Shown piece after piece: positions 47,276 to 52,308 of a DNA stretch of 62,880 nt. The stretch is from Myxococcales bacterium (GTDB taxonomy: Bacteria > Myxococcota_A > Polyangia > Polyangiales > Polyangiaceae). Location: assembly GCA_013297655.1 (NCBI GenBank), contig JAAFHV010000016.1, positions 1 through 62,880 of the forward strand, in the 5' to 3' direction. Position 1 is the stretch's first letter; each line of letters begins with the position of its first letter. The translations under genes were made by a program, and so were the position numbers. The notes under the pieces were generated by a model. That model saw only the letters and a program-made list of their open reading frames with translations, ran no database searches and was not told where the DNA came from.

Positions 47276-48244
47276 GAGGGTCACCGCGCCGGAACCTAAC
47301 AAGGTGCCCCCCAAAGGGGACAATTTCCGGCAAGTACAAAGTTTTGTCGTAATTTCAGACACTTAGCCACTATTGACAGCGGATCGGTCGAAAATTTGAC
47401 AAACTTTTCCGTGCAACGTTCACGTGACAACCATATTTCGAGGTGATTTCAATACGTTATGGTACTCGCAGTGAGCCTTTCCGGTGATACGGGCGTTTCA
47501 CGGGGCATCTACAAGGAATAAAGTTGTTTGATTACGAGAGCTTTGACGTTTCTTTCGAATGGCCGTGGACGGCCTCGAAGAACGGGTGCTAGCTCCATCC
47601 AACGTCGTCGCGAGCGGTCGGCGGGGAGCCAACCGGTGGTCGAAGCAATTCGGATCACGGGTGGGTTGCCCCTCGATCGTTCGCGCTGGTCTGAGTCGTA
47701 TTGTCGTCCGTCCGCTTGTTTTTTCGTCGTCGTCTGTCTCACTAACCGGCCGCAGTTTTACGTCGCCTCGTGCAGGAGATGGGGAGTTTTGTCTCCTGCT
47801 CCGAGGTGGCTCGCCCGAAGCGCGGGGCTCTTTCCCGCTCCGTCGCGAGGGCATCGTGTCTCCGAAACGTCCGTAAGAACCAACCAAACCCGCAGGTTCC
47901 AAGAACCCGCGAGGGCCTCGTCGTCTCAAAAAGAAGGCATGTCCGAGCATGCTTTCTCGTGCGTCCGTCCGCTCCAAACAGGGGCGCTCGCACGAAGCCT
48001 CCAGAGGGGTCGAATGGGCATCCGTGGACTGTGGAAAAGCTGTGGAAAGAACCTGTCGACGAGCGCCGTCTGGCGTGAGTGCATGTTCGGTAAGCGTCCG
48101 TTACTGCTTGTAAAAGTAGTCATCTGACGGCGCGCGGAGGGCTGCTCCCTCCATTGTTCAACTTGGGGAAAACCCGGTCACGTGCCGATGGCGCACGCGG
48201 CTCGGTATCCCCTTCGTTTCGTCTTTTTTCGAGGTCCGTATCGC
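47276..48244. other. oriC: Candidate replication origin (oriC) and dnaA leader
   Basis: A long gene-free stretch just before dnaA. The part at about 47330-47540 is the most AT-rich in the window and includes TTGACAGCGG and TTTGACAAAC plus many A/T runs, a good candidate for the unwinding element. At 48030-48049, TGTGGAAAA and TGTGGAAAG lie 11 bp apart, both one to two bases off the DnaA-box core. No rpmH, gidA or parA is nearby. No protein frame here is convincing. A longer AT-rich patch follows the divergent barrel gene. The assignment rests on position next to dnaA, AT content and box-like words. Confidence 0.6.
48030..48049 (+). promoter_or_regulatory. Pair of DnaA-box-like sites
   Basis: TGTGGAAAA (48030-48038) and TGTGGAAAG (48041-48049) are spaced one helical turn apart, 200 nt before the dnaA start. 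Both differ from TGTGGATAA by one or two bases. They may serve origin binding or dnaA autoregulation. Confidence 0.45.
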
Positions 48245-49669
48245 ATGGGAATGATCGATCGCGCGCACGACGAGCTCTGGGACGACGCCGTCGCGTTCAC
48301 GCGGGGCCGCTCGCCGGGCAGCTTCGAGCAGTGGTTTTCGGGGGTCCAGTTCGAGGGCCTCATCGACGGGGTGCTCGCGCTCCGGGCGCGAGACGAGTTC
48401 GTGAAAGATTGGGTGGAGCAGCACTTCCTCCCCACCCTCGCCGACTACCTGCGGAGCCAGACAGGCCTCTCGATCCAGACCGCGTGGTCGGTCGGCGGCG
48501 AGCTCGACCGCCCCGTCGTCGATGGCCCCATCGCGCCTGCGGTGCGCCCGCGCGTCTTGCGTCCTTCGGCGCCCCCTCCCTCGCCCGCGGGCTTCGAGTA
48601 CGAGCCCGTCCCGAGCAGCGTGCGCAAGCCCGCGCTCGGCGGCCCGCCTCCCTTCACGCTGAACCCGAAGTACAGCTTCGCGAACTTCGTCGTCGGTCCG
48701 TCGAATCAGCTCGCCCACGCGGCGGCGATCGCGGCGGCGGGGGGCGGCGGTCCGCGTCACAATCCGCTCTTCTTGTGCGGCGGAACGGGCCTCGGCAAGA
48801 CGCACCTCGTGCACGCCGTGGCACACCGCGTTCGCGCGGAGAGGCCGCAGGCGAAGATCGTCTACATCTCGGCCGAGAAGTTCGTGAACGAGTTCGTGCA
48901 GTCGCTGCAAGACTCGAAGATGGCGGAGTTCCGCAGCCGTTACCGCGAGCGCTGCGACTTGCTGCTCGTCGACGACATCCAGTTTTTGGCCTCCAAGACG
49001 CAGACGCAGGAAGAATTTTTCCACGCGTTCAACGCGCTCCACCAGGCCGACAAGCAGATCATCGTCACGAGCGACAAGTACCCGCAGCAGCTCGAGCGCA
49101 TGGAGGAGCGGCTCATCTCGCGCTTCACCTGGGGTCTCGTCGCCGACATCCAAGGGCCCGAGCTCGAGACGCGGGTCGCCATCCTTCGCAAAAAAGCGAT
49201 CGCCGAGAACATCGATCTCGCGCCCGAGGTGGTGCTCCTCCTCGCGCAGGCCGTGCGCAGCAACGTGCGCGAGCTGGAAGGCGCGCTCATTCGCCTCGTC
49301 GCGAAATCGAGCTTGCTCCACCGCGCGATCGACATCGATTTCGTGCGCGCCGAGCTCGCGGTCACCGCCCCGCGCGTGACCGAGACCGGCATCGACGACA
49401 TCCAGCGCGCCGTCTGCCACCACTTCAAGCTCACCGAGCGCGAGCTGTGCTCGAAAGATCGCCACAAGAGCATCGCGTTCGCCCGTCACGTCGCGATGTA
49501 CCTGTGCAAGCAGCGCCTCAAGGCGAGCTTCCCGGAGCTCGGGCGCGCGTTCGGAAACCGCGACCACACCACCGTCATGAGCGCCGTCCGCAAGGTCGAG
49601 GCGCTCCGTGAGTCGGACCCCGAAGTGCGCGCGCACCTCGAGGCGCTCGAGCGCAAGCTCGGGAACTGA
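48245..49669 (+). CDS. dnaA: Chromosomal replication initiator DnaA
   Basis: About 474 residues. Domain I (about 1-75, DELWDDAVAFTRGR...SFEQWFSGVQ) binds partners; a short linker (about 75-145) follows; domain III (about 145-355) has Walker A GGTGLGKTH (about 179) and Walker B LLLVDDIQF (about 239); domain IV has the DNA-binding signature FGNRDHTTVMSAVR (about 435-448). All expected motifs are present. ATG 48245 (MGMIDRAHDELW) is taken since it gives the usual start of domain I and has CGAGGT about 8 nt upstream; the ATG at 48182 is 21 codons further up. Confidence 0.97.
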   Translation: MGMIDRAHDELWDDAVAFTRGRSPGSFEQWFSGVQFEGLIDGVLALRARDEFVKDWVEQHFLPTLADYLRSQTGLSIQTAWSVGGELDRPVVDGPIAPAVRPRVLRPSAPPPSPAGFEYEPVPSSVRKPALGGPPPFTLNPKYSFANFVVGPSNQLAHAAAIAAAGGGGPRHNPLFLCGGTGLGKTHLVHAVAHRVRAERPQAKIVYISAEKFVNEFVQSLQDSKMAEFRSRYRERCDLLLVDDIQFLASKTQTQEEFFHAFNALHQADKQIIVTSDKYPQQLERMEERLISRFTWGLVADIQGPELETRVAILRKKAIAENIDLAPEVVLLLAQAVRSNVRELEGALIRLVAKSSLLHRAIDIDFVRAELAVTAPRVTETGIDDIQRAVCHHFKLTERELCSKDRHKSIAFARHVAMYLCKQRLKASFPELGRAFGNRDHTTVMSAVRKVEALRESDPEVRAHLEALERKLGN

Positions 49670-49816: not shown

Positions 49817-50464
49817 ATGCACTCGCAAAGTGAGTCGGGCCTCGCCACGAGCTTCCATGGGTCGCCCCTCGGCCGCCACGTCCCAGGGTCGCCGCGAAGG
49901 GGTGCGGGCGTCGGGTTCGCCGTCGTCTCCGCGTTCGCCGTCGTCTCCGCGGCATGTGGTCCGTCGCCCGCTGCGCCGGTCGCCACCGCGCCTGTCGCGC
50001 CGGTCGCCACGAGCAACACCACCGAAGCCGCACCCGAAGCCGCCGCCGCTGCGCCAGGAGCAGGTGCAGGGTGCAAAGAGATCGCCGATCTCACCAAGCT
50101 GCCGGGCGAGCCAGTCGTCGGCGCGTGGGTGACGACCGAGAGCTGCCTTCGGTACACCGTGCTCAAGCCCGGCACCGGAGCGAAGCCGCAGAGTCGCCTC
50201 TCCACGGTACGTGCACACTACACAGGATGGCTCACCGACGGCACCGAGTTCGACAGCTCCGTCGCGCGGGGCAAGCCCTTCGATTTTCGTCTGAGCCAAG
50301 TGGTGCCCGGCTGGACGGAGGCGATGCTCGGCATGAAGGCGGGCGAGAAGCGCAAGCTCGTGATCCCGCACAAGCTCGCGTACGGACGCGAGGGCAAAGG
50401 GAACATCCCGCCCAAGGCCACGCTCGTGTTCGACGTGGAGCTCATCGAGGTGCTCGTCGAGTGA
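49817..50464 (+). CDS. FKBP-type peptidyl-prolyl isomerase lipoprotein
   Basis: About 215 residues. A long basic N-region leads to the signal core GFAVVSAFAVVSAAC, with a lipobox (SAAC near residue 47), then a Ala/Pro-rich spacer. The FKBP domain (about 105-215) has TVRAHYTGWLTDGTEFDSS, KPFDFRLSQVVPGWTEAMLGMKAGEKRKLVIP and NIPPKATLVFDVELIEV, all typical. It should assist protein folding in the envelope. A start downstream of 49817 would give a shorter signal; AGAGG just before 49817 supports it. Confidence 0.9.
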   Translation: MHSQSESGLATSFHGSPLGRHVPGSPRRGAGVGFAVVSAFAVVSAACGPSPAAPVATAPVAPVATSNTTEAAPEAAAAAPGAGAGCKEIADLTKLPGEPVVGAWVTTESCLRYTVLKPGTGAKPQSRLSTVRAHYTGWLTDGTEFDSSVARGKPFDFRLSQVVPGWTEAMLGMKAGEKRKLVIPHKLAYGREGKGNIPPKATLVFDVELIEVLVE

Positions 50465-50527
50465 CGTGAGCCATCGTCGCCGCCGTCGCGCAACGAACGA
50501 CGGGCGCGCGGGCATGACCCGCTCGGT

Positions 50528-50726
50528 GCTCTAGAGCACCGAACCGTTCGATGACCGAGGATTTTCGCTGAGTTGCGAGCCGTGCGAGGCGCGACGACGA
50601 CGCTACGGGGCGCAAGTCCCTGACGAGGGACGAGTCCTACTGCTGCTAGCCGAGGAGGAGCAACGAAGCACGGCGACGCGAATCGGCGAAGAGCCGACCG
50701 AATCGAGCTGTTCGGTGCTCTAGAGC
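50528..50726. mobile_element. 199-bp element with terminal inverted repeats (MITE-like or structured RNA)
   Basis: GCTCTAGAGCACCGAAC (50528-50544) and its exact reverse complement (50710-50726) are perfect 17-bp terminal inverted repeats; inner symmetry continues for about 8 more bp with two mismatches. An internal hairpin GTCCCT-GACG-AGGGAC (50616-50631) lies near the middle. There is no transposase. The right end covers the stop codon of the SurA-like gene. It could be a MITE-like transposable element, a bidirectional terminator, or a structured RNA. No target-site duplication is clear. Confidence 0.55.
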
Positions 50727-51709
50727 CGGACGTCGATGTAGAGGCCGCGGCGCAGCTCGAGGAGCCAGAGCTTCCGCTGGCGCTCCATGGCGTCGCCGTA
50801 GGCGCGATCGAGCATGGTCTCTTTCACCTCTTCGAACGCGGGCACGTGGGCGGCCTGGCGCACTTGCACGATGAGGATGGCCTCGGTGCCGAAGCGGAGC
50901 GGGTCGCCCGTCTCCCCGGCGCCGAGCTTTTGCACGATCTCGCGGAGAGGCCCGAAGAGCGCCTGGAGCGGCTGCGGACCACGAGAGCCGCAGGTGGTCT
51001 TCGTCTGCGTGTCGTCCGAGTATTGCGCGACGATCTTGCAGAAGTCCTCGCCCCTCCGCGCGCGGATCACGAGCTCTTGCGCGAACGTCTCGCGGACCTT
51101 GATGTCGTCGTCGGTGGCGCCCGGCTGGATGCGGAGCGCGAGGATGTGCGGGTCCACCACCGCGTCGCCGCCGGAGTCGCGGATCCAACGCGTGTAGGTT
51201 GCACGGGCGTCGGCCTCGGTCACGCGAACACGGCCGCGGACGCGGAGCTGGATGAGCTTTCCTTCGAGGAGCTGACGACGAATCTCGTCGCGGTAGTCTT
51301 GCTCGGAGAGGCCCTGGCGCTGCGCCTCGTTCAGGAGCTCGGCGACCGACAGGCGCTGCGACGCGGCGACGTTTTTGATGCCGTTGTCGACCTCCTCCGC
51401 GGAGACCGCGAGGCGCGCTTTGTCGGCCGCGATCTCCTCGAGGCGATCGTCGATCATGCGGGTGAGCAGCTCGCGGATCTTCTCCGACTCTGCCGCCGCC
51501 TGTTGCGCCTGGGTGGGGTTCTGCGCGGCGATCGCGATGAGATGCGGGCGGGCGCGGTGACGCAGCTCCGACAGGAGGATCGGACGATCGCCGATGACGG
51601 CCACCACGCGCTCGACGATCGACGCCTCGGCGACCTTGGGTGGCAGCGCTGCCGCTACGAGACCGAGACCGACGACGCCGCACGTAAGCCATCGAAGAAA
51701 GCGCTTCAT
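50720..51709 (-). CDS. SurA-like peptidyl-prolyl isomerase
   Basis: A 329-residue exported chaperone. After a signal peptide (TCGVVGLGLVAAALPPKVAEA) comes the SurA N domain (IVERVVAVIGDRPILLSELRHRARP, about 32-56, then the helical region to about 190) and a parvulin domain (about 190-300, ILALRIQPGATDDDI, GEDFCKIVAQYSDD, FGPLREIVQKLGAGETGDPLRFGTEAILIVQV). It would help outer-membrane proteins fold. ATG 51709 is the start. The stop lies in the right terminal repeat of the 199-bp element. Confidence 0.9.
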   Translation of the reverse strand: MKRFLRWLTCGVVGLGLVAAALPPKVAEASIVERVVAVIGDRPILLSELRHRARPHLIAIAAQNPTQAQQAAAESEKIRELLTRMIDDRLEEIAADKARLAVSAEEVDNGIKNVAASQRLSVAELLNEAQRQGLSEQDYRDEIRRQLLEGKLIQLRVRGRVRVTEADARATYTRWIRDSGGDAVVDPHILALRIQPGATDDDIKVRETFAQELVIRARRGEDFCKIVAQYSDDTQTKTTCGSRGPQPLQALFGPLREIVQKLGAGETGDPLRFGTEAILIVQVRQAAHVPAFEEVKETMLDRAYGDAMERQRKLWLLELRRGLYIDVRL

Positions 51710-51747
51710 TCCGGCTTCGGAGTTAGCACACCGGCCCCCGCCGTCCC

Positions 51748-52308
51748 ATGAACATCCGAGCATGCGTCGGTGCGATTTGCGGGCGCCCGCGCCTGGCTTC
51801 CCGAGGCGTTCTCGGGCATGGGAGGGAGGTGGCGACCCACGCTCCCGATGCCGCCGACCATGCCCGCGAGGTCGCTCGCACGAGGCGCGCACGAGCGATC
51901 GTCGCGGTCGCGGTGGGCCTCGTGCTCGCGGCCACCCTCTTCCCGTTTCGCTTTCGCCTAGATGGCCCACATCTACATGAAAAAATTGGCGAAATTGAAT
52001 GGGAGATTTACTACACCGACCGCCCCGGGCACGTGACGATCGACCGCGACCTTCTGCAAAACGTGGTCCTCTTCGCGCCCCTCGGCGCGGCGCTGGCGAT
52101 GCTGCCGAGAGCGCCTCGGTGGGGGCGTGAGCTCGGGGTCGCGGTGGGCATCGGGCTCGGCTTGTCGATCACGGTCGAGCTGCTGCAGCTCCTCACCGAG
52201 ACGCGCATCACGCAGCTCGCCGACGTCTGGCGAAACGGGCTCGGGGCTTTGCTCGGCGCCATCGCCGTGGTCGCGGCGCGAAGGCGCTCCTCTTCACCTA
52301 TGGCGTAG
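51748..52308 (+). CDS. VanZ-family membrane protein
   Basis: A 186-residue protein. Hydrophobic segments IVAVAVGLVLAATLFPF, LLQNVVLFAPLGAALAML, VAVGIGLGLSITVELLQLL and NGLGALLGAIAVVAA fit the four-helix VanZ layout, and TRITQLADVWRNGLGALLG is a typical VanZ end. The family is of unknown activity. The N-terminal 45 residues are hydrophilic and arginine-rich, which may mean a later start; no ribosome site is clear. Confidence 0.75.
   Translation: MNIRACVGAICGRPRLASRGVLGHGREVATHAPDAADHAREVARTRRARAIVAVAVGLVLAATLFPFRFRLDGPHLHEKIGEIEWEIYYTDRPGHVTIDRDLLQNVVLFAPLGAALAMLPRAPRWGRELGVAVGIGLGLSITVELLQLLTETRITQLADVWRNGLGALLGAIAVVAARRRSSSPMA

Follow-up and report, generated by a model that had tools for sequence, protein, structure and literature searches.

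The window considered here is the whole stretch of 62,880 nucleotides that was analyzed, and the element under study lies in it between two convergent genes, one FKBP-like and the other SurA-like. Directly upstream of the FKBP-like gene, the open reading frame at 48182-49669 reads as DnaA, and a replication-origin neighborhood is possible near this DnaA-like frame. The sequence GCTCTAGAGCACCGAAC is found at 50528-50544 and its exact reverse complement at 50710-50726, and on this symmetry the first-pass annotation had described a 199-bp piece framed by exact 17-bp inverted repeats. The symmetry is present, but the unit is 187 bp long and the outer perfect transposon repeat of the window copy is only 11 bp, GAGCACCGAAC (Table 1).

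Table 1. Features of the element and of its surroundings in the window.
Feature	Position	Strand	Basis or remark
Mobile element proper, 187 bp	50534..50720	+ (strand of conserved core)	Same extent in source-genome copies; covariance-model match CTAG-to-CTAG, L001 1532-1724
Left TA of target duplication, inside CTAG 50531-50534	50532..50533	.	CTA/GAGC..GCTC/TAG intact in 29 of 50 copies
Right TA of target duplication, inside CTAG 50720-50723	50721..50722	.	Boundary count over 50 copies
Left terminal inverted repeat, perfect over its first 11 bp	50534..50552	+	Exact inverted match; lineage-specific in relatives
Right terminal inverted repeat	50703..50720	+	Exact inverted match to left end
Core internal loop A, 5' side, GACCGAG	50553..50559	+	Near-invariant over 16 genomes
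Core internal loop A, 3' side, GCCGACCGAA (family consensus GCGACGGGA)	50693..50702	+	Alignment of family copies
Core loop B, 5' side, AGGCGCGACGAC	50587..50598	+	Proposed tandem G.A pairs with 3' side
Core loop B, 3' side, CGAGGAGGAGCAACGA	50651..50666	+	Proposed partner of loop B 5' side
Tiny hairpin module nested beside AC; of 34-bp type, with 33 bp in this copy	50599..50631	+	Missing in 154-bp copies; at four different sites in others
Remnant of another copy's right end	50516..50531	+	Direct repeat in window and reading of sequence
FKBP-like gene, convergent neighbor	49817..50464	+	Open reading frame; identity read from sequence
SurA-like gene; TAG stop inside CTAG at the element's right end	50720..51970	-	Open reading frame list and CTAG survey

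The 17-bp perfect repeat is made of the 11-bp terminal repeat, the TA, and four flanking bases, and 6 of its 17 bp are not element sequence. The match of the four outer bases is coincidental: the GCTC on the left belongs to what is left of another copy's right end, and the GAGC on the right is coding sequence of SurA. The element is without a gene of its own, and the earlier statement that the piece has no coding capacity agrees with the open reading frame list of the window, which gives no gene within it. The contact with the SurA stop codon was also correctly described, with the right end of the element overlapping the TAG of the SurA-like frame.

Dispersed copies, target site, and nested module

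At least 50 full copies of the element are present in the source genome, in size classes of 154, 181, 188, 215, and 222 bp. A DNA search of this genome returned approximately 40 scored copies with 77-96% identity, each confined to CTAG..CTAG. From the same genome, 57 distinct copies with paired ends were extracted, 50 of them long enough for alignment, and all these copy numbers are lower bounds. Of the 50 copies, 29 retain both the CTA on the left and the TAG on the right, and a further 18 retain one of the two. When up to two mismatches are allowed, the end CTAGAGCACCGAAC has 253 matches in the genome versus 123 for the reversed control, and it is exact in 78 among the matches listed. Given this excess and the dozens of full copies, the inverted repeat does not arise by chance. 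In three copies, only a 23-bp palindrome is left. The fact that several contigs of the source genome end inside near-identical copies suggests recent spread, and the element accounts for an intergenic repeat at which Polyangiaceae assemblies break.

The element is small, has terminal inverted repeats and a target duplication, carries no gene, and occurs in many dispersed copies; it is a MITE-like non-autonomous transposon. A short non-autonomous transposable element was one of the two natures proposed by the first-pass annotation, which expected many copies with the same ends for a MITE. This proposal is borne out by the copies described above, by their TA/CTAG boundaries, and by insertion-sequence ends that match those of the element in a relative (see below).

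Solo ends, in which an exact CTAGAGCACCGAAC is followed by unrelated sequence, were also observed (L033, L035, L039, L081:5281, and L085:5026), far above chance. No partner end was found within the DNA around them, and the idea that they are the termini of a larger autonomous element was rejected, given that no transposase reading frame lies nearby.

The size classes result from the 154-bp base form and added modules of 27 or 34 bp, GACCCTTGGAAGTCCCTGACGAGGGAC or GACGCTACAGGGCCGCAAGTCCCTGACGAGGGAC, as seen in the copies of the source genome. These modules occupy four different sites, in either orientation and invariably beside AC, and the 154-bp copies, which have no module, act as related empty sites for it. 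The module hairpin has 132 matches in the source genome versus 0 for the control, and it is also found in 27-bp tandem arrays and within an apparent coding sequence (..DPGKSLTRD..). The tiny module is a second mobile unit nested in the element and the source of its size classes. Like the CGTC/GTAG REPs and the Rickettsia palindromic elements, it is a tiny palindrome with many copies, some inside open reading frames, and without a dedicated transposase (PMC3733652). Unlike the CGTC/GTAG REPs, it has no CGTC/GTAG-tagged stem of that form and inserts beside AC inside other repeats. Loci with the tiny module include, besides that of the window, L154, L166, L155, L149, L115, and L122. At least two further repeat families of the source genome, apparently bounded by CTAG and with the sequences CTAGGAGGCCGCGCGG.. 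(L124, L147, L152, and L157) and CTAGGCTCCGCGCGCTCC.. (L146, L159, L161, and L172), each carry the tiny module.

Conserved core and lineage-specific ends

A covariance model (R1) built from 21 copies of the source genome was run over 108 genomes of the family and detects full-length relatives in 24 of them, which belong to 15 of 48 genera and include those of Sorangium cellulosum So ceGT47 and of Minicystis rosea DSM 24000, Minicystis being a member of Polyangiaceae. The terminal repeats differ wholly between lineages (GAGCACCGAACAGGTTG, GAGCGCCGAACAAAACC, GAGCCCATCCCGG, GAGCCTGAGCAGG, GAGCTCATTTCATAACC, GAGCCAGTCC, and more), with TA outside in every case and the core beginning after about 18-20 bp. 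Conversely, the end TAGAGCACCGAACAGGTTGA is found in 28 of 106 family genomes, versus 0 matches for its reversed control, and is located on several unrelated insides. Bacterial MITEs normally have conserved ends and junk inside, while here the inside is conserved and the ends are swapped. As read from these sequences, the transposon ends can be exchanged around a structured cassette that is conserved, which is the reverse of an ordinary MITE.

The internal hairpins noted by the first-pass annotation are confirmed by folding. The + strand of the window copy folds with -118.5 kcal/mol (z -7.7 versus shuffles) and the - strand with -95.9 kcal/mol (z -2.9), and the + strand folds better both as RNA and as DNA. 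For the 21 base copies, RNAalifold gives a single end-to-end hairpin of 48 pairs, 16 of which have changes on both sides. In pairs predicted from both strands, G.U is found in 14 and A.C in 2, which indicates that the + strand is the selected strand; in the wide alignment, which is fitted to the structure, this bias persists but is weaker (29 versus 17 pairs). With 59 copies from 16 genomes, aligned by fitting to the model, 40 of the 48 pairs have changed on both sides, and the covariation is 0.497, compared with 0.145 for shuffled alignments and 0.05-0.11 for slid structures.

The layout of the core is GGACCGAG...AGGCGCGACGACGA-hairpin-GAGGAGCAACGA...GCGACGGGA, with conserved internal loops and covarying stems. 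In the family copies, these four unpaired segments are near-invariant, while the stems and the ends vary. In the central loop, three sheared G.A pairs in tandem may alternate with C-G pairs. Covarying stems together with conserved unpaired loops are what is found in functional structured RNA, and the pattern of invariant loops and covarying stems is typical of it; selection on the core at the RNA level is likely. Folding and covariation had been suggested earlier as a check of the structured RNA, which was placed as an alternative to the transposon. The RNA part of this proposal finds partial support in a conserved fold with strong covariation over genera and phyla. The opposition between the two readings falls away, because the RNA-like core is the cargo of the transposon. 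A scan of Rfam 15 with the window copy and copies from other genera and phyla gave no family over the gathering cut-off, and no paper describing the element was found by sequence or by topic within the literature searched.

Outside the family, the exact core pattern AGGCGCGACGASGA-N16..26-GAGGAGCAACGA is found in at least 104 stretches of the public genome set, belonging to at least 10 phyla. Among the matches listed are Gemmatimonadota, Omnitrophota, Patescibacteria-type lineages, Planctomycetota, Burkholderiales (with isolates of Collimonas), Verrucomicrobiota, Acidobacteriota, Zixibacteria, Bdellovibrio, and Myxococcota. Many of the matches are metagenome bins, while Collimonas, Sorangium, and Minicystis are isolates. 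Given that the letters of the core are fixed by the search pattern, only the stems and the ends count as independent evidence in other phyla. Inverted repeats bounded by TA surround 36 of 81 cores, versus 7 of 97 shifted controls, and these ends are again lineage-specific. The stems in other phyla covary (0.455 versus 0.088), and in several of these phyla the model aligns over its full length. No match to the element was found in plasmids and viral contigs.

Elements of ~275-290 bp with two opposed cores, in a REPIN-like layout, were observed at L338, L348, L358, L314, L335, L349, and L357, and two-core elements are present in Omnitrophota, Patescibacteria-type lineages, and Planctomycetales. 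Two opposed cores per element are compatible with DNA hairpins as well as with RNA. This touches on the reading of the element as an ordinary MITE, in which the inside is a frozen relic of the ancestral element whose loops serve only transposition, as a DNA hairpin or cruciform or by binding of a transposase or a host factor, with no RNA role. Such a reading accounts for the two opposed cores in some phyla, for the folding of both strands, also as DNA, and for the lack of a sense or antisense bias relative to genes. It is at odds with the preference for G.U over A.C on one strand and with the persistence of the inside in ten phyla under changing ends; in ordinary MITEs it is the inside that is lost and the ends that stay. 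We regard it as doubtful, although it is the strongest of the rivals.

Mobilization and related elements

In So ceGT47, the neighbor of one copy is an IS5-family element (NCBIfam NF033580, E 3.6e-43), present in six copies of 889 bp with the form TTA/GAGCGCCTAACAAAACC.../TTA. The elements of this genome start with GAGCGCC(G/T)AACAAAACC, the core following directly, and their ends are identical to those of the resident IS5-family element. Duplications of TTA or TAA are found at 8 of the 11 So ceGT47 elements. In genome G095, the IS5-type end GAGCCGATCCTAAAACC resembles the element end GAGCCAGTCCTAAAACC, which is a near match, so that identity between element and insertion-sequence ends comprises one clear case (So ceGT47) and one partial case (G095). 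In the source genome, no match to PF13340 or PF01609 (IS5/IS4 families) was found, and its one IS630, located at a CTAG site, has ends unlike those of the element. The mobilizer in this genome has, therefore, been lost, is unassembled, or is of another type.

These observations are best explained, with a probability of roughly 0.7, by a two-module non-autonomous transposon in which exchangeable terminal repeats enclose a conserved structured cassette. The outer module, of 17-20 bp, would be a pair of terminal inverted repeats that either derive by copying from a resident TA-targeting insertion sequence or have evolved together with it. The mobilizer with the best support would be an IS5-family transposase resembling the IS427 group, with IS630 as the alternative, and it would act in trans, moving the element into rare CTAG (or TTA/TAA) sites with duplication of TA or TNA. 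The inner module would be a cassette of ~115-125 nt, folded into a single long hairpin whose two internal loops are conserved, purine-rich, and perhaps tandem G.A motifs, and it would be maintained on one strand and common to many phyla. The selected form is most likely RNA rather than single-stranded DNA, and the core might protect the 3' end of transcripts, bind a protein, or help in its own transposition. A broader proposal, which we make tentatively and hold to be somewhat short of an even chance, is that of an as yet unrecognized structured-RNA class spread over at least 10 bacterial phyla that occurs only as cargo of tiny transposons. It would survive by capturing the terminal repeats of the local TA-target transposon, and its conserved tandem-G.A loops would be bound either by the machinery of transposition or by a cellular partner that is itself conserved.

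Mobilization by an IS630/Tc1-mariner transposase instead of IS5 is unlikely. IS630 copies across the family are also at CTA/../TAG with a TA duplication, and the pneumococcal RUP is a published precedent (PMC2229807). Nonetheless, no IS630 end found matches the ends of the element, while those of the IS5 family do in So ceGT47 and G095, and the 3-bp TTA/TAA duplications in So ceGT47 are unlike the TA of IS630. As the direct source of the ends, IS630 was rejected at all the IS630 loci examined, where the target agrees and the ends do not.

In genome G024, a RAYT-like Y1 transposase gene is followed, after 39 bp, by a core element (L187 386-1501); this element is one of two copies there, and the linkage is a single case. 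Together with the opposed hairpin pairs of some phyla, which resemble REPINs, this might point to a REP/REPIN-like element mobilized by a RAYT (Y1) transposase. We consider this very improbable, given that no Y1 transposase is found in the source genome or in So ceGT47, that other RAYT loci are without the core, and that the target duplications and terminal repeats are DDE-like. No RAYT/Y1 was found near the cores in other phyla.

As a transposable element, the element belongs with the Correia and RUP MITEs (PMC2229807, PMC10969869), from which it departs by its deeply conserved covarying core and its replaceable ends. The Correia/NEMIS elements of Neisseria, MITEs of about 107/155 bp, resemble it in length, TA ends, terminal inverted repeats, and a long RNA-like hairpin, and their size classes also arise from an internal insert (PMC2229807, PMC10969869). 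This likeness is one of description: the element, unlike Correia/NEMIS, is GC-rich, its core is conserved across phyla, and its ends are exchanged between lineages. The RUP of Streptococcus pneumoniae, of ~107 bp, has ends that match a resident insertion sequence, IS630-Spn1, and a TA target, as here (PMC2229807). In contrast to RUP, for which no cross-phylum core is known, the partner here looks to be of the IS5 family. Enterobacterial ERIC/RU-1 are, like the element, MITEs that fold as RNA and have TA ends; they are 127 bp long and occur in different taxa, and a conserved core with exchangeable ends has not been reported for them. Longer forms of ERIC/RU-1 arise by insertion at set sites. 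Members of the IS427-like group of the IS5 family, including IS870, share the TA/TNA duplication and the CTAG preference with the element, which in contrast has no transposase and carries a folded cassette missing from the insertion sequence. IS870 is an IS427-group element that requires CTAG, with stop-codon contact, and we take it to be the nearest precedent for the CTAG target of the element.

If the two-module reading is true, one covariance model suffices to find an RNA-like genetic element that is widespread and has gone unannotated. It then becomes testable whether a non-autonomous element that exchanges its ends can persist longer than its transposase, and whether mobile hairpins have a function, be it in the host or in transposition.

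Neighboring genes and the SurA contact

In the window, base composition would give ~191 CTAG sites; 16 are observed, 12 of them outside predicted genes. In approximately 20 of 91 copies, the adjoining gene stops right at the edge of the element, its stop codon being the TAG of CTAG; the overlap with the SurA stop codon is, therefore, a consequence of CTAG targeting. Over the 91 copies, the 3' ends of genes face the element overall with no sense or antisense preference, which makes a gene-specific role unlikely, and copies adjoin unrelated genes in either orientation. A gene-linked cis-regulatory RNA was rejected on this lack of orientation bias.

The first-pass annotation had suggested that a structured RNA or a terminator in this position serves both folding-factor genes, and this part of its proposal, also with a bidirectional terminator, is highly improbable. 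The position between convergent genes and a related copy in another genus (L182), likewise at the stop codon of SurA, are in line with such a role. Dozens of copies beside unrelated genes are not, and in the other genus the partner is a transporter and not FKBP. An intrinsic terminator is further contradicted by the sequence after 50726, CGGACGTCGATG, which gives no T-run after the hairpin.

The copy in the other genus (L182 of genome G101, 1501-1662) has different ends and lies at the SurA stop codon in the same orientation as in the window, and the gene downstream of it codes for an MFS-type transporter. The SurA-stop copies in the two genera may go back to a shared insertion or to two independent ones.
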